NCBI GenBank assembly: GCA_001799195.1
Contig: MGSU01000225.1
Location: forward strand, 1 to 7,189
DNA length: 7,189 nucleotides
Direction: 5' to 3'
DNA from: Deltaproteobacteria bacterium RIFOXYA12_FULL_61_11
GTDB taxonomy: Bacteria; Bdellovibrionota_F; JAHFAK01; YA12-FULL-61-11
A program made the position numbers and the translations under genes. Below the pieces are notes generated by a model. The model saw nothing but the letters and a program-made list of their open reading frames with translations, was not told the DNA's origin and ran no database searches. Of this stretch, positions 631-7,189 are shown piece after piece. Each line of letters opens with the position of its first letter. Position 1 is the first letter of the stretch.

Positions 631-761
631 ATATGTTCTGGTGTCAAAATTGGAACGTGGTGCCTATCCGGCTACGCCGAGATCCCACACCGGACGATCG
701 CATTGACCCTGCCACCCCTGGGTGCTATGGTGCGGCCGCGTTATCGAGCGTGACCGGTGCC

Positions 762-3392
762 ATGAGCGTGCTGACCTCCACCTCCCCCGAGCGTACCTCG
801 CGTCCCTCGGTTCCCGGGCGGGGGAGCATCCTCGTCGTCCTCACGAGGATCTTCCCGTTCCTCGCCTGGTTGCGCGAGACCACCCCACGGAGCCTGCGCA
901 CCGACCTGATCGCCGGGGTGACCGTGGCCTTGGTGCTCATCCCCCAATCCATGGCCTACGCCCAACTCGCCGGCCTGCCGGCCTATTTCGGTCTCTACGC
1001 GGCCTTCCTCCCTCCGATGATCGCCGCGCTCTTCGGTTCGAGCCGCCAGCTCTCCACCGGTCCGGTCGCCGTGGTATCCCTGCTCACCGCAGCGGCTCTC
1101 GAACCCCTTGCTACCGCGGGGGGGGAAACCTATATCGCGTATGCCATCACCCTTTCCCTGGTGATAGGTCTCTTCCAGTTGCTGCTCGGGCTGCTCAAGC
1201 TGGGCATGATCGTCAATTTCCTCTCCCACCCCGTGGTGAACGGTTTTACCAACGCGGCGGCGATCATCATCGCAACCTCGCAACTCTCGAAGCTCTTCGG
1301 CGTCACGGTCGACGGGGCCGAGTATCATTTCGTCACCGTGGCCCGGGTGGTGGCCGCTGCCTACGACTATACCCACTGGCCGAGCTTCGGTCTGGCCGTC
1401 CTGGCCTTCGGCCTGATGTACGGACTGAAGAAGCTCAACCCCCGACTCCCCTTCGTCCTTGTCGCCGTGGTCGTGACCTCGGTCCTGTCTTTCATGCTGG
1501 GTTTCGAGCACAACCGCACGGTATCCCTGGCCGAGTTCTCGGAGCAAGGCAAAGAGCTTCGCAAACCCCTCGAAGATTACAACGCCGCGATACAGGCAAT
1601 CGAACGAACCTCGGCCCAACGAGCCGAGCTCACCGCACAGGTCCGAGCAGAGGAAGAACAGAAGCCCCCCGATCCGCAACGCATCCTCGACCTGAGCCAT
1701 CAACTCGACCTCGTCAACTTGAACCTCTCCTCGTTCAAGCGGCGCACTCGGGTCCTCCGGCAACACTTGCGCTCCATGATTTTCTACCGGGTCGAGGATC
1801 CGGCAGGGGATGTTTTTCACCTCCGCATCGCCGGCCAGGACCCCCACCCCCACGACGGAAGGGTCTGGCGGCTCAAGGTCGGCAACAAGAACCTCGAGCC
1901 CACCGCCCTTTCGCTGCAAGGAGGTGGAGCGGTCGTCGGCAAGGTGCCCTCCGGACTGCCCGCGTTCTCCCTGCCGCACCTCGACCTGCGAACCTTCCTG
2001 CAGTTCCTGACCATCGCCATGATCATCTCCCTGCTCGGTTTCATGGAGGCCATCTCCATCGCCAAGGCCATGGCAGTAAAGACTCATCAGAAGATCGACC
2101 CCAACCAAGAACTCATCGGGCAAGGGTTGGCCAATATCGTGGGCAGCTTCTCCTCGAGCTATGCGGTCTCCGGTTCCTTCTCGAGATCGGCGGTGAATAT
2201 CGGTGCCGGTGCGGTGAGCGGCTTGTCCAGCGTTTTCACCAGTCTGGTGGTGGTCCTGACCCTGCTCTTCTTCACCCCGGCCCTCTATTTCATCCCCGAA
2301 TCCGTGCTCGCCGCGGTCATCATGATGGCCGTGCTGGGCCTGATCAACATCAAGGGCTTTATCCATGCCTATCGAGCCCAACGTCATGACGGAATCATCG
2401 CCCTGGCCAGCTTCCTGACCACCCTTGCCTTCGCTCCCCATCTCGACAAGGGCATCATGCTCGGGGTGGTGCTCAGCATCGGCCATTACCTCTATCGAAC
2501 GACCAGACCGGTGTTAACCTTCCTCTCGCGTCACCCCGACGGCACCTTCGTCAGCACCGAGCGACACGGCCTGCGCGAGTGCGAACACGTGCTGGTGCTG
2601 CGCTTGGAGGGTCCCCTGTTCTTCGCCAACGTCAATTACCTGGTCGATCGCCTGCACGAGACCTTGAGCACCAGGCCCCGGATGAAGCACCTGATCTTCG
2701 TCGCCGGCGGCATCAACGAGATCGACGCTTCGGGCGAAGAAGCCCTCAGCCTGCTCATCGATCAACTCCGAGCTCGTGGCCTCGAGGTCTCGTTCTGTGG
2801 TTTGAACGAAGCTGTCCTCGACCTCTTGCGCAGGACCTATCTCTACCAGAAGATAGGCGCCGGTCGCATCCACGCTTCGATCGAAGATGCGCTCACCTCG
2901 GTACACGAGGGAGCCCACCGCGGAAGCCTCGAGAACCCCTGCCCCTTGCTCCGCGCCTGTTACCACACTCCCGAGGAGGCCCCCGGGCTAGGCTCAGAGC
3001 TGTTGACCAATTGCGCCGTGCTGCTTGTCGATGCCTCTCCTCAGCGAAATCAATCACTTGCTCGCAAGATGCGCCGCAGAGGCTTGCACGTCTCGATACT
3101 CCCCTCCCTTCAGGAACGGCTGCCCGACGATGCTGACTTCGAGGTCGTCGTCTTGGTCGATCCCGCGGAGGGCACTGTGGAGAAAGCGCTCGCCGCGGTG
3201 CATGATCAACTTCCTCAAGCTCAGGTCATCCTGTTGTCCGGCACCGGGCGCGAGCCGATTCCGGAGAACGGGTATTTGCAGGCCTCCCGCAACCTGTCGA
3301 TGGATCACATGCTCGGCCTCATCACCAGAGCAGTGCTCACCGGCCGCACCTGCCGCGCCGTATCGAGCCAAACTTTCGCGGACCGAGGCTGA
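762..3392 (+). CDS. SulP/SLC26-family anion transporter with STAS domain and degenerate receiver-like tail
   Basis: Inner-membrane anion carrier, 876 aa; sulfate, bicarbonate or another anion cannot be told apart. The SulP core (about 47-585) shows LIPQSMAYAQLAGLP, then FGLYAAFLPP, GSSRQLSTGPVAVVSLL and SGSFSRSAVN. The core is interrupted by about 140 extra residues (249-389) between the seventh and eighth predicted membrane segments, partly coiled-coil-like. A STAS domain (607-717) has the IDASG motif with Asp655 and Ser657. After it, 750-860 resembles a receiver (AVLLVDAS, VVVLVDP, VILLSGTG, YLQAS) with key residues altered; ordinary SulP proteins end after STAS. Start: the frame is open from an ATG at 633, but codons 633-761 have only about 63% G/C at third positions against roughly 90% just after 762, and the extra 43 residues look non-family. 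No candidate start (633, GTG 750, 762) has a strong ribosome site. The next gene follows after 12 bp. Confidence 0.93.
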   Translation: MSVLTSTSPERTSRPSVPGRGSILVVLTRIFPFLAWLRETTPRSLRTDLIAGVTVALVLIPQSMAYAQLAGLPAYFGLYAAFLPPMIAALFGSSRQLSTGPVAVVSLLTAAALEPLATAGGETYIAYAITLSLVIGLFQLLLGLLKLGMIVNFLSHPVVNGFTNAAAIIIATSQLSKLFGVTVDGAEYHFVTVARVVAAAYDYTHWPSFGLAVLAFGLMYGLKKLNPRLPFVLVAVVVTSVLSFMLGFEHNRTVSLAEFSEQGKELRKPLEDYNAAIQAIERTSAQRAELTAQVRAEEEQKPPDPQRILDLSHQLDLVNLNLSSFKRRTRVLRQHLRSMIFYRVEDPAGDVFHLRIAGQDPHPHDGRVWRLKVGNKNLEPTALSLQGGGAVVGKVPSGLPAFSLPHLDLRTFLQFLTIAMIISLLGFMEAISIAKAMAVKTHQKIDPNQELIGQGLANIVGSFSSSYAVSGSFSRSAVNIGAGAVSGLSSVFTSLVVVLTLLFFTPALYFIPESVLAAVIMMAVLGLINIKGFIHAYRAQRHDGIIALASFLTTLAFAPHLDKGIMLGVVLSIGHYLYRTTRPVLTFLSRHPDGTFVSTERHGLRECEHVLVLRLEGPLFFANVNYLVDRLHETLSTRPRMKHLIFVAGGINEIDASGEEALSLLIDQLRARGLEVSFCGLNEAVLDLLRRTYLYQKIGAGRIHASIEDALTSVHEGAHRGSLENPCPLLRACYHTPEEAPGLGSELLTNCAVLLVDASPQRNQSLARKMRRRGLHVSILPSLQERLPDDADFEVVVLVDPAEGTVEKALAAVHDQLPQAQVILLSGTGREPIPENGYLQASRNLSMDHMLGLITRAVLTGRTCRAVSSQTFADRG

Positions 3393-3404: not shown

Positions 3405-4607
3405 ATGCCGACTATCGCCCTGTTCAGCGCCAGCCATTGCGGGGGTGAAGAGCTCGCTCGTGGAGTAGCCACGGCCCTCGGTCTCCCGCTGCTCGAGGGC
3501 ACCCTGCTCGACGAAGCGGCCTCCCTGGCCGGGGCACCGCCCAAGCGCTACCTGCGCAGTCTCTTGGGTGCACCCTCCTTCTTGAACAACCTTACTCATG
3601 ATCGTGAGAAATCCCTGGCCTACCTCCAACTGGCCCTGGCCAAGCGGTTACAACACGACGATTTCGTGTTCCAAGGCCTGGGACTTCACCTGATTCCGCC
3701 TCAACTCACCCACGTGCTGCGGGTCTGCCTCCTCGCCGACCTCGATTACCGGCTGCAGCACCTCGTCGCCTCGGGCCTCGAGGCCAAAGAAGCCCAACGC
3801 CGACTGAGCTATGATGACGAGGAACTGGCCCGGCACATCGATCTCATCCACCAACGTTCTCCCTGGGACGCGGAGCTTTACGACCTGCGCCTCCCCTTGC
3901 ACACCACGACCCCCGACGAAGCGATACGGCTCATCTGCGAGGCCGCGCTCAAGGAAGCGCTCAAGCCGACCAGGGCCTCCCTGGCAGCGGCCCTGGACTT
4001 CCTGCTCGCCAGCGAGGTCAAGGTCGAACTCGCGCGCCATGGGCACCACGATTGCGACGTCGAGGTCCAGGAGGGAGAGGTCGTGCTCAAGATCAACCGC
4101 AACGTGCTTCGGCTCAGCGCGCTCGCAAGAGAACTGACCGACGTGGCCGTCAAGGTCCCCGGGGTCGCAAAGGTCCGGACCGAGGTCGGTCCGCGGTACA
4201 ACGCTCCGGATATCCTACGCAACCTCGAGGTTCCAGAACAGCACAAGGTCTTACTCGTCGATGACGAACGCGATTTCGTGCTGACGCTCTCCGAACGCCT
4301 GGAGATGCGCAATCTCGCCTCGGACGTCGTTTACAGCGGCGAAGAGGCGTTGGCGTACCTGGAGGAGCGTCGGCCCGAGGTCATGGTTCTGGACCTCCGC
4401 ATGCCGGGCATGGATGGCCTGGAGGTACTCCAACGGCTCCGCACGACTCATCCCGAGGTCCGGGTGATCATCCTCACGGGCCATGGCTCCGAACAAGACC
4501 AACAGAAAGCCATGGAACTCGGTGCCTTCGCGTACCTACAGAAGCCGGTCGCCATCGATCAACTGGTGACCGTCCTGCAGCAGGCTTCCGTCGCGAAACC
4601 CCACTGA
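3405..4607 (+). CDS. Fusion protein: cytidylate-kinase-like domain, BON-like domain, response-regulator receiver
   Basis: 400 aa, soluble, no signal peptide. Residues 1-185 resemble the cytidylate-kinase-like family: beta-strand IALFSAS, then HCGGEELARGVATALGLPLL, a VCLLADLDYRLQHL stretch, an Ala/Glu-rich helix and YDLRLPLHTT. The nucleotide loop keeps only the Gly-Gly and lacks the Lys-Ser/Thr of a classical P-loop, so kinase activity is doubtful. Residues about 190-262 resemble a BON domain (VEVQEGEVVLKI, then VPGVAKVRTEVG). Residues 279-396 are an intact receiver: Asp286/Asp287 in VLLVDDE, phospho-acceptor Asp330 in VMVLDLRMPG, Thr358 in IILTGHG and Lys380 in YLQKP. There is no DNA-binding or other output domain after the receiver, so the N-terminal part is the probable output or ligand module. 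Its place between transporter and kinase (4-bp gap to the kinase) suggests that it is phosphorylated by that kinase; this is inferred. The receiver is certain, the kinase-like part probable, the BON-like part moderate. Confidence 0.9.
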   Translation: MPTIALFSASHCGGEELARGVATALGLPLLEGTLLDEAASLAGAPPKRYLRSLLGAPSFLNNLTHDREKSLAYLQLALAKRLQHDDFVFQGLGLHLIPPQLTHVLRVCLLADLDYRLQHLVASGLEAKEAQRRLSYDDEELARHIDLIHQRSPWDAELYDLRLPLHTTTPDEAIRLICEAALKEALKPTRASLAAALDFLLASEVKVELARHGHHDCDVEVQEGEVVLKINRNVLRLSALARELTDVAVKVPGVAKVRTEVGPRYNAPDILRNLEVPEQHKVLLVDDERDFVLTLSERLEMRNLASDVVYSGEEALAYLEERRPEVMVLDLRMPGMDGLEVLQRLRTTHPEVRVIILTGHGSEQDQQKAMELGAFAYLQKPVAIDQLVTVLQQASVAKPH

Positions 4608-4611
4608 ACGG

Positions 4612-6363
4612 ATGAAACCGGGGATGCCCGACCATACGCAGGCGACGAAGAAGAGCGAGTGGTGGATCGACGACAACGACGTCGGCGAACAACCCTTGTT
4701 CCGCTACCGTACCCTGTGGACCGGTATTGTGGTTTCCACCTGCCTGGTCGCCCTGCTTCCCCTCTTCGTCATGGTCGCGGCCTATTACGTCCAGTATGAG
4801 AAGGCCTTCGTCGACGAGGTCAAGCACCCGATCAAACTGCTCGCGGTCAGTGCCCGGCGCTCCTTGCTGTACTACCTCGAGGAGCGCACCATCCTGCTCG
4901 ACTTCATTGTCCGCGATCTCTCCCAGGCCGAGCTGCTCGACCAGGCGCGCATGGCCCGTCTCTTCGGTAACCTGCGAGAGAACCAGAGCGGTTTCGTCGA
5001 CATCGGCCTCATCGACGACCAAGGCGTGCAGCGGTCCTATATCGGACCTTACGATCTCCTCGGTCGGAGCTATGCCGATCAACCCTGGTTCCAGGAGACC
5101 CTTTTCGAGGGCCACTCCATCAGCGAGGTGTTCAGCGGGTACCGTCGCTTCCCCCACTTCACCCTGGCCGTGCGTCGGGTGGGCGAGAACGGGAAACCCT
5201 ACCTCCTGCGCGCCACCCTCAACACCACCATGCTCGACGAGATCCGCGATCAGACCGAAGAGCGCAGCACCCGCGACACCTTCATCATCAATCGCGACGG
5301 CATCCTCCAAACCCCCTCCAAGCGCTTCGGACAAGTCCTCTCCGCGAGCGGTTTCTCCCCTCCACCGGATTTGACCGACCTGTTGGTGAAGGAAGAAGCA
5401 GGCCCCTCGGGCAGGACCCGGGTCGTGGCCTACGCACCGATCACCGGCTCCCCGTTCACCTATGTCGTGGTCGAAGAGCGAGACGATCTCCTGGTCTCCC
5501 TGTTCACCTTGCGCAAGAAGCTGCTCTGGTTCCTGGCCGGGAGCGTGGTGATCATCCTGGTGGTGGTGTTCTCGGCCGCGACCATGATGGTCAACCGACT
5601 GCGCGAAGCGGACGACAAACGCCTGAACATGCTGCACAAGATCGAGTACACGGCGAAAATGGCCTCCATCGGCCGGCTGGCCGCGGGCGTCGCCCACGAG
5701 ATCAACAATCCCCTGGCCATCATCAACGAGAAGGCCGGGTTGCTGAAAGACTACGTCACCTTGAGTACGGCTATCGCGGAAAAAGACCGCTTCTTGCGGC
5801 ATGTCGAGCCGATCATCAGCTCGGTCGAACGTTGCGCCAAGATCACCCGCCGCTTGTTGCGCTTCGCCAAGCACATCGACGTGCATCGCGAACCGATCAA
5901 CCTCGAAGCGCTGCTGCGCGAGGTGGTGGGCTTCATGGAGAAGGAGGCAGCCTACCGCGGCCTCGGCATCGCTTTCCACATCGGAGAGGATCTGCCGGTG
6001 ATCGAGAGCGATCGCGGGCGGCTGCAGCAGGTCTTCCTCAATATCATCAATAACGCCTTTGGCGCGGTCAAGGACGGAGGACACGTCGATATTTCGATGC
6101 AGAGGGAGGACGAGGGTTTCGTCAGCATCTGTATCGAGGACGACGGGGTAGGCATCCCCAAGGAACACCTCAAGAGCATCTTCGAACCCTTCTTCACCAC
6201 CAAGGAGAAACACGGCACCGGTCTGGGTCTGTCGATTACGTATGGCATCGTGGAAAAACTCGGCGGCAAGATCCACGTGGAGAGCGAGCACGGCAAATGG
6301 ACTCGCTTCACCGTGCTATTACCCCTCACTGCCCCCCAATCCACGGACGGAAACCATGAGTGA
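4612..6363 (+). CDS. Transmembrane sensor histidine kinase with dCache-like sensor domain
   Basis: 583 aa. A cytoplasmic N-terminus (1-34) is followed by membrane helix 1 (about 35-60), an extracytoplasmic sensor (about 61-300), and helix 2 (about 303-327). The sensor looks dCache-like: VDIGLIDDQGVQ, a SYADQPWFQETL segment and ISEVFSGYRRFPHFTLAVRR, then a second lobe with TFIINRDGILQTP and VVAYAPITGSPFTYVVVEE. The cytoplasmic part is a complete kinase: H box AAGVAHEINNPLA with His362, N box QQVFLNIINNAFGA (Asn477, Asn481), G1 DDGVGIP (511-516), F box FEPFF and G2 GTGLGLS (535-541). Only about 15 residues separate helix 2 from the dimerisation helix, so no HAMP or PAS domain is present. The ligand is unknown; dCache sensors often bind small organic molecules. 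ATG 4612 lies 4 bp after the previous stop; ATG 4624 (codon 5) is an alternative, and neither has a strong ribosome site. The 3' end overlaps the next gene by 8 bp. Confidence 0.96.
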   Translation: MKPGMPDHTQATKKSEWWIDDNDVGEQPLFRYRTLWTGIVVSTCLVALLPLFVMVAAYYVQYEKAFVDEVKHPIKLLAVSARRSLLYYLEERTILLDFIVRDLSQAELLDQARMARLFGNLRENQSGFVDIGLIDDQGVQRSYIGPYDLLGRSYADQPWFQETLFEGHSISEVFSGYRRFPHFTLAVRRVGENGKPYLLRATLNTTMLDEIRDQTEERSTRDTFIINRDGILQTPSKRFGQVLSASGFSPPPDLTDLLVKEEAGPSGRTRVVAYAPITGSPFTYVVVEERDDLLVSLFTLRKKLLWFLAGSVVIILVVVFSAATMMVNRLREADDKRLNMLHKIEYTAKMASIGRLAAGVAHEINNPLAIINEKAGLLKDYVTLSTAIAEKDRFLRHVEPIISSVERCAKITRRLLRFAKHIDVHREPINLEALLREVVGFMEKEAAYRGLGIAFHIGEDLPVIESDRGRLQQVFLNIINNAFGAVKDGGHVDISMQREDEGFVSICIEDDGVGIPKEHLKSIFEPFFTTKEKHGTGLGLSITYGIVEKLGGKIHVESEHGKWTRFTVLLPLTAPQSTDGNHE

Positions 6364-6736
6364 AGAACGTATCCTGCTGGTCGACGACGAGGGCGAACTG
6401 GTCTTTACCCTGGCCGAGCGCCTCGAACTCCGGGGCTTCAAGGTCGATGCGGTGACCAGCGGGAAAGAGGCGGTCGCCCTTCTCGAAACCCATGCGTACG
6501 ATTGTGCCGTGTTCGACGTGAAGATGCCGGGCATGGGAGGGGGGGAACTGCTCGACCAGGCCTGTAGGCTCCAACCCGATCTACCGGTGATCATGCTCAC
6601 CGGACACGGCTCCCCACACGAAGAAGAGGGTCTGGATCGCTGTCAAGCAGCCCATACCGTCCTCTATAAACCGGTGCTCCTCGACACCTTGCTCGAGGCC
6701 ATGCGCAACGCCAAGAGGAGCCCCCGGTATGACTGA
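6356..6736 (+). CDS. Single-domain response regulator (receiver only)
   Basis: 126 aa, a lone receiver with every key residue: Asp10/Asp11 in ILLVDDE, phospho-acceptor Asp54 in CAVFDVKMPG, Thr82 in IMLTGHG and Lys105 in LYKPV. There is no output domain, so it probably works as a phosphorelay intermediate or by binding a partner protein, as CheY-like receivers do. Its ATG lies inside the kinase gene and the two overlap by 8 bp (ATGAGTGA), which implies translational coupling and makes that kinase the likely phosphodonor. The frame is open further upstream (from an ATG at 6242), but that stretch lies inside the kinase's ATPase region and MSEERILLVDDE is the natural receiver start. The first 25 residues closely resemble the receiver of the kinase-like/BON gene, suggesting duplication within the operon. 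Confidence 0.95.
   Translation: MSEERILLVDDEGELVFTLAERLELRGFKVDAVTSGKEAVALLETHAYDCAVFDVKMPGMGGGELLDQACRLQPDLPVIMLTGHGSPHEEEGLDRCQAAHTVLYKPVLLDTLLEAMRNAKRSPRYD
6715..6720 (+). promoter_or_regulatory. Shine-Dalgarno site of the second kinase-like gene
   Basis: GAGGAG lies eight bases before the ATG at 6729, inside the end of the response-regulator gene. It supports 6729 as the start of the last gene. Confidence 0.65.
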
Positions 6737-7189
6737 CCAGGCAGCAAAGGCCCGCCTGACCTTCTTCGGGACCATGACCGCCAGCCTCTCGCACGAGCTC
6801 AAGAACGTACTGGCAACGATCAACGAATTCGCGGGGTTGCTTGAGGATCTCAGTGTGGGCGGCGATCCGGCAGCCCCACCCCTGCCCGCCTCCAAGGTCC
6901 ATTCCATCAGCACGCGCGTCCTCAACCAGATCAAGAGGGGAGAAGCGCTCGTGAAACGGCTCAACCGCTTCGCCCACAGCACCGATGACCGCAACGGACC
7001 CATCGAGTTGAACCCCCTCCTGGGAGATTTCTGCGACCTCGGTGATCGCTTCGTCCGGCTGGCCCAGGCAACCCTCACGCGTTCCTTCCCCCCGGAGGAG
7101 CACCTGCTCGAGCTCGATCCCTTCGCGCTGCTCCAAGTGCTCTTTCAAGCTCTCCGCCTCGCCCTCGACGAGCTCGGCCCCGATCGCCG
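6729..7189 (+). CDS. Soluble histidine-kinase-like protein with degenerate N box (3' end beyond window)
   Basis: 153 codons are visible, running off the right edge. The protein starts MTDQAAKARL with no signal peptide or membrane helix. The dimerisation and phosphoacceptor helix begins almost at once: FFGTMTASLSHELKNVLATI with His22 in an SHELKN H box. A proline-rich loop (about 44-54) separates it from a second helix (VHSISTRVLNQIKRGEALVK, then RLNRFAHS) like the second helix of a HisKA hairpin. The start of the ATPase domain follows, but where kinases read QVLxNLxxNA, this protein reads QVLFQALRLAL (136-146), so the two Asn become Gln140 and Leu144. Catalysis may therefore be lost or altered, and a phosphotransfer or scaffold role is possible. 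The G1, F and G2 boxes lie beyond the window. It overlaps the preceding receiver gene by 8 bp (ATGACTGA), so the two are probably co-translated and may interact. Confidence 0.85.
   Translation, partial: MTDQAAKARLTFFGTMTASLSHELKNVLATINEFAGLLEDLSVGGDPAAPPLPASKVHSISTRVLNQIKRGEALVKRLNRFAHSTDDRNGPIELNPLLGDFCDLGDRFVRLAQATLTRSFPPEEHLLELDPFALLQVLFQALRLALDELGPDR

Follow-up and report, generated by a model that had tools for sequence, protein, structure and literature searches.

The output of two-component systems has mostly been studied as the control of transcription or of second messengers, and phosphotransfer in a canonical receiver is known to require an acidic pair and a lysine. Transporter clusters that include two-component genes were published for sulfate reducers in 2025 (Sci Adv, PMC11887813). 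They contain DASS or SulP transporters with Cache-domain histidine kinases and CBS proteins, and the authors proposed sulfate sensing, with transcriptional control exerted via WalR-type regulators; neither "receiver" nor "cytidylate kinase" occurs in the main text of that paper. Marietou et al. (2018, PMC5840216), who surveyed the SulP proteins of sulfate reducers, nowhere mention the terms "response regulator", "two-component" or "histidine kinase".

Two further groups of proteins are relevant here. Aspartate-less receivers (ALRs; e.g. RitR, AmiR and ChxR) have the receiver fold, while the phospho-Asp is missing. Constitutive or ligand-driven regulation has been proposed for them, and DNA-interacting modules form the largest category of their known outputs (PMC4395418). 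In the SLC5/STAC histidine kinases (CbrA, CrbS, RpuS), a transporter domain is fused to a two-component part (PMC9100948). No published fusion of a receiver with a SulP or DASS transporter was found in the open-access literature.

The SulP transporter and its C-terminal tail

The window (i.e. the whole 7,189-base stretch of DNA that was analysed) carries a SulP/SLC26 gene composed of the following parts:

762..3392, + strand: SulP/SLC26 anion transporter with a C-terminal tail (PF00916, TIGR00815)
1500..1949, + strand: insert between the transporter halves (TM7-TM8 loop, predicted to be extracytoplasmic), seen as a split Pfam match
2508..2891, + strand: STAS domain (PF01740 over residues 650-753, 59 bits, E 4.4e-16)
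2940..3011, + strand: linker leading from the conserved CPL motif to the receiver-like domain (alignment with homologues)
3012..3344, + strand: degenerate receiver (pseudoreceiver) domain, as judged by profile scores, model and alignment

By its Sulfate_transp and STAS domains, which score above the curated cut-offs, the gene product is a SulP/SLC26 transporter (PF00916, 341.6 bits, E 6.4e-102; TIGR00815, 431.7 bits against a cut-off of 380.45). It is 876 aa long when counted from ATG 762, the start that matches the numbering of the original prediction, and 919 aa long when counted from ATG 633 (ORF 633-3392); residue numbers for the tail run from ATG 633 throughout. The Sulfate_transp match is split into two pieces by an insert, which is also present in all seven aligned homologues (7/7), as well as in a SulP encoded on a Legionella plasmid and aligning with the window protein in one piece. 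By analogy with the topology of SLC26 proteins, this insert should lie on the extracytoplasmic side. In two SulP-receiver proteins from other loci (L073:7468-10056 and L074:10910-13489) it contains the motif CLKCH (CxxCH, of the c-type haem kind), which is absent from the window SulP and the other homologues and might possibly serve extracytoplasmic redox sensing. Taking into account that dsrA is present in the same genome, sulfate is a plausible substrate of the window SulP. Upstream of the transporter gene and on the opposite strand (3-527) lies a gene whose lipoprotein-like product is rich in Cys and Glu and matches no Pfam family.

It had been claimed that SulP proteins normally end after the STAS domain, and this is true of four close homologues, found in genomes G172 and G025 (58% identity), G386 and G686. 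The last point that the window protein has in common with these tail-less proteins is the CPL motif (residues 770-772), shortly after which they stop. The tail of the window SulP extends about 120-150 residues past the STAS domain, whose end is placed by Pfam at approximately residue 753.

Receiver homology of the tail

The original prediction interpreted the tail as a degenerate receiver on the basis of four motifs, all of which lie in frame and in the order given within ORF 633-3392: AVLLVDAS (residues 795-802; 3015-3038), VVVLVDP (residues 838-844; 3144-3164), VILLSGTG (residues 865-872; 3225-3248) and YLQAS (residues 881-885; 3273-3287). Profile searches with the tail alone agreed with this interpretation, the scores being far above those of shuffled sequences. 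A profile of 14 receivers from the window and related loci, one SulP receiver among them, gave the tail 22.2 bits (maximum of 5,000 shuffles, 6.6), and a second receiver profile, with no SulP tails in it, gave 21.3 bits (shuffle maximum 8.5; reversed sequence -1.5). STAS domains scored at most 1.6 bits on the latter profile.

Judged by sequence comparison, the similarity of the tail to receivers appears real but remote. Pfam Response_reg (PF00072) produced no match on the tail even at E <= 1, NCBIfam gave a weak match to an ActR/PrrA regulator (E 0.011), and in the PDB phmmer found for the tail only designed proteins and similar chance matches. Among 98 relatives only two weak matches to the tail were obtained, both of them receivers: one is located beside the two-component cassette of G025 (see below) and the other belongs to a receiver-DASS protein of the window's own genome.

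An AlphaFold model of the STAS domain and tail (pLDDT 79.5) likewise returned a receiver-like fold (VIA Z about 15); the underlying alignment consisted of eight SulP C-termini, three of them with canonical receivers, so the model cannot count as an independent test of the receiver hypothesis. The modelled tail comprises five strands and helices 1, 3 and 5, with no clear alpha2 or alpha4; its core beta strands and these three helices were modelled with fair confidence. In VIA-align comparisons, model residues 1-141 matched SLC26 STAS structures (Z 17.5) and residues from about 160 to 294 matched receivers (Z 14-15.3 over residues 165-292; best match over 125 residues, 2.8 A), including the aspartate-less AmiR. 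A single-sequence AlphaFold prediction of the tail retained the beta-alpha order but reached a pLDDT of only 45; it matched no receiver, and its PDB matches were meaningless.

Loss of phosphotransfer residues

In the alignment with receivers, D800 of the acidic pair after beta1 is kept and the two following residues are changed (D to A801 and E to S802). The column of the phospho-Asp, at the end of beta3, is occupied by V842, and D843 is located one residue further on. The Thr to Ser and Lys to Ala changes were also recovered: the Thr/Ser position at the end of beta4 holds S869 (in VILLSGTG), a residue of the permitted kind, and the conserved Lys at the end of beta5 is replaced by A884 (in YLQAS). 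All losses are in-frame substitutions and in-frame gaps at alpha2 and alpha4, the alpha4 region being shortened.

The tail is therefore not a canonical PF00072 receiver, from which it departs in family score, acidic pair, phospho-Asp and Lys. Its receiver homology, its predicted fold and the missing phospho-Asp identify it as a putative aspartate-less receiver, or pseudoreceiver, whose ordinary phosphorylation is unlikely. This degenerate form is known from one genome.

SulP relatives with intact receivers

The closest SulP proteins were drawn from searches of up to 386 genomes across the domain, plus selected phyla. Homologous SulP-STAS-receiver proteins were found in three genomes, each ending in a canonical C-terminal receiver: G257 (857 aa, Pfam E 4.8e-30), G505 (862 aa, E 1e-23) and G642 (859 aa, E 1.2e-22). 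These genomes represent two phyla other than that of the window, G257 belonging to one and G505 and G642 to the other. According to the alignment, the window protein and these three share the same layout, i.e. a SulP with the TM7-8 insert, a STAS domain and a receiver after the CPL motif. Together with the profile scores and the modelled fold, these homologues uphold the view that a degenerate receiver follows the STAS domain in the window.

Searches of the phyla of G255, G349 and G025 revealed no further SulP-receiver fusions, and a scan of genome contigs with the full SulP retrieved only Desulfosporosinus SulPs (32-35% identity), whose matches reach query residues 746-805 at most. The SulP of G255 (L061:3-2363, cut at the contig start) bears several tandem STAS-like copies behind the transporter, and a stand-alone receiver gene adjoins it on the other strand.

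The adjoining two-component cassette

Beyond the SulP gene, the window contains a cassette of four genes in the order CMK-REC, dCache kinase, receiver and kinase-like protein:

3405..4607, + strand: CMK-REC, a cytidylate-kinase-like protein with a C-terminal canonical receiver (PF13189, E 3e-16; PF00072, E 2.4e-30)
4612..6363, + strand: sensor histidine kinase with dCache, HisKA and HATPase_c domains (Pfam)
6356..6736, + strand: stand-alone canonical receiver (PF00072, E 1.2e-21)
6729..7187, + strand: HisKA-like protein, truncated where the contig stops (H-box; relatives without a recognisable HATPase)

CMK-REC starts 12 bases past the SulP stop. G025, G257 and G505 have the same gene order, with a second receiver (R2) coming after it. 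The proposed link between the tail and the neighbouring two-component genes is supported by the relatives. In G505 the SulP-receiver gene adjoins the full cassette, and in G642 it adjoins CMK-REC, soon after which the contig ends; in both genomes CMK-REC and the SulP-receiver gene are transcribed divergently, 126-130 bases apart. The cassette of G257 is on a different contig from the SulP-receiver gene, and that of G025 follows a different transporter, judged by eye to be of the SLC13/DASS type and accompanied by receiver-CBS proteins. The CMK receivers of all six genomes, the window's included, form one clade (99/99).

In full-length relatives of the kinase-like protein the H-box is invariant and no HATPase_c domain scores above the cut-off; histidine kinases are still matched by a profile of these proteins, the match running into the first part of the ATPase domain. 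By analogy, they may be histidine phosphotransferases of the Spo0B or ChpT kind, and the candidates are window 6729-7187, L043:5090-5788, L044:4750-5439 and L073:3299-3973. The cytidylate-kinase-like family recurs repeatedly beside anion-transporter and two-component genes. Another member, with C-terminal transmembrane segments, is encoded in the window's genome (G000:C94, L047:5890-8652), where its gene is flanked by a histidine kinase gene on one side and, judged by eye, a gene for a TauE/SafE-like permease on the other.

In a tree of the SulP core, G257 is sister to the tail-less G386 (99/99), so that the distribution of the receiver needs at least two changes. In the receiver tree, the SulP receiver of G257 clusters with the cassette's stand-alone R2 receivers (83/97), and those of G505 and G642 are placed elsewhere. 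The fusion history may be explained either by several fusions or by one fusion plus losses.

A receiver-DASS fusion elsewhere in the genome, and the distribution of dsrA

A 676-aa protein encoded elsewhere in the window's genome (G000:C310, L076:623-2650, - strand) consists of a canonical receiver (E 8.6e-25) fused N-terminally to an SLC13/DASS transporter (Na_sulph_symp, E 1.1e-31). Its gene lies downstream of those for a CBS-like protein and a dCache kinase, and full-length relatives (55-58% identity) are present in G207, G025, G310 and G172. This genome thus provides a second case of an anion transporter with a receiver.

The dsrA gene was detected above the curated cut-off in the window's genome (G000) and in G257, G505, G642, G386, G686, G207 and G255; it was not above the cut-off in G025, G172, G310 or any control genome. 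Since all four genomes with SulP-receiver fusions, the window's included, carry dsrA, they probably belong to dissimilatory sulfur-metabolising bacteria, and the source of the window is likely to be a sulfate-respiring bacterium.

What the tail may do

We consider it probable that the tail is a receiver which was fused behind the STAS domain of SulP, has since lost its phosphorylation chemistry and now acts on STAS in a fixed state or by binding a partner. The fusion is suggested by the remote receiver homology, by the intact SulP relatives with a receiver at the same position and by the adjacent cassette. Most likely, the tail of the window protein works independently of phosphorylation, as a domain for regulation or docking.

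The main rival to such a role is that the once-fused receiver has become a vestige, drifting and with no present effect on transport, which we regard as unlikely, though worth weighing. The catalytic residues and two helices have been lost together, and tail-less homologues exist. The branch of the tail in the receiver tree is extremely long (6.3, too long for placement) and its synonymous codon adaptation, at 0.12, falls below that of all the other sequence windows examined (minimum 0.18), both of which would also fit relaxed constraint. However, the reading frame has stayed open, with about 125 codons and no stop, its synonymous codon choice is coding-like and far above random (0.10 versus -0.61 +/- 0.12), and the core of the fold can still be modelled.

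There is little chance that the tail is a working, if unusual, receiver, with the shifted D843 or some other residue continuing to accept phosphate: the proximity of D843 to the phospho-Asp column, the retention of D800 and a Ser (S869) where receivers have Thr would favour this, but the second acidic residue and the Lys are replaced (A801 and A884) and alpha4 is missing. Even less credible is an artefact, either an intact receiver garbled by assembly or frameshift errors or a chance sequence. The contig is indeed short and comes from an assembly of 342 contigs, but the changes are substitutions in the right frame and in-frame gaps, and the frame has coding-like codon use; a frameshift within the tail was rejected, since only the annotated frame matches the receiver profile, the others giving -2.3 bits or nothing. 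Finally, a second, diverged STAS domain is scarcely conceivable and was rejected, even though the G255 SulP has tandem STAS-like copies and both folds are alpha/beta, because the tail reaches 3.2 bits on the STAS profile, a score that shuffled sequences also attain (maximum 7.1), as against 21.3 on the receiver profile, and the VIA matches to STAS and receiver structures separate cleanly.

Returning to the fused receiver, the following scheme can be proposed. In the intact relatives, the dCache kinase would sense an extracellular anion, probably sulfate, and phosphate would pass via the stand-alone receiver to the putatively ATPase-less kinase-like protein, in a role like that of Spo0B or ChpT. 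The outputs of this relay would be the receiver of CMK-REC and, in these relatives, that of SulP, which would act on the STAS domain and thereby adjust transport. In the window, the SulP tail, unable to take phosphate normally, would act on STAS in its fixed state or through a bound partner, and the neighbouring CMK-REC would carry the phosphorylation-dependent signal. We infer that signalling and transport may be directly coupled. In a more tentative generalization, dsrA-carrying bacteria of several phyla could direct a phosphorelay at transporter-fused receivers (SulP-STAS-receiver and receiver-DASS), setting sulfate uptake post-translationally and not solely through gene expression, with the window receiver as a phosphorylation-independent case.

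A receiver within a transporter would couple the sensing of an anion directly and quickly to its movement. The respiration rate of sulfate reducers is influenced by their uptake of sulfate, and the descriptions of transporter and two-component gene clusters so far have offered no mechanism of direct control. The degenerate copy in the window is a natural loss-of-chemistry variant, and the intact fusions of G505, G642 and G257 make the question testable. We find the wider pattern of fusions more interesting than a single odd tail.

Comparison with known systems

The new element is the occurrence of the same SulP subtype with canonical receivers in two other phyla, with the cassette adjoining in G505 and G642. 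As in the published clusters of sulfate reducers, a transporter is found beside Cache-domain kinases, but here receivers are fused to the transporters themselves. The window protein has the same transmembrane domain and C-terminal STAS domain as other SulP/SLC26 proteins, to which it adds a post-STAS domain and a long TM7-TM8 insert. One published SulP is functionally tied to two-component signalling, as the window SulP may be, but in its case by protein interaction; the abstract describes no receiver on the transporter. With the ALR domains the putative pseudoreceiver shares the missing phospho-Asp, its partner being an anion transporter. In the SLC5/STAC proteins the transporter is joined to the kinase, i.e. 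to the input side of the system, whereas the window SulP carries a receiver, which belongs to the output side. The SulP-receiver fusion is a variation on two known themes, receiver output and SulP transporters, rather than a new category.
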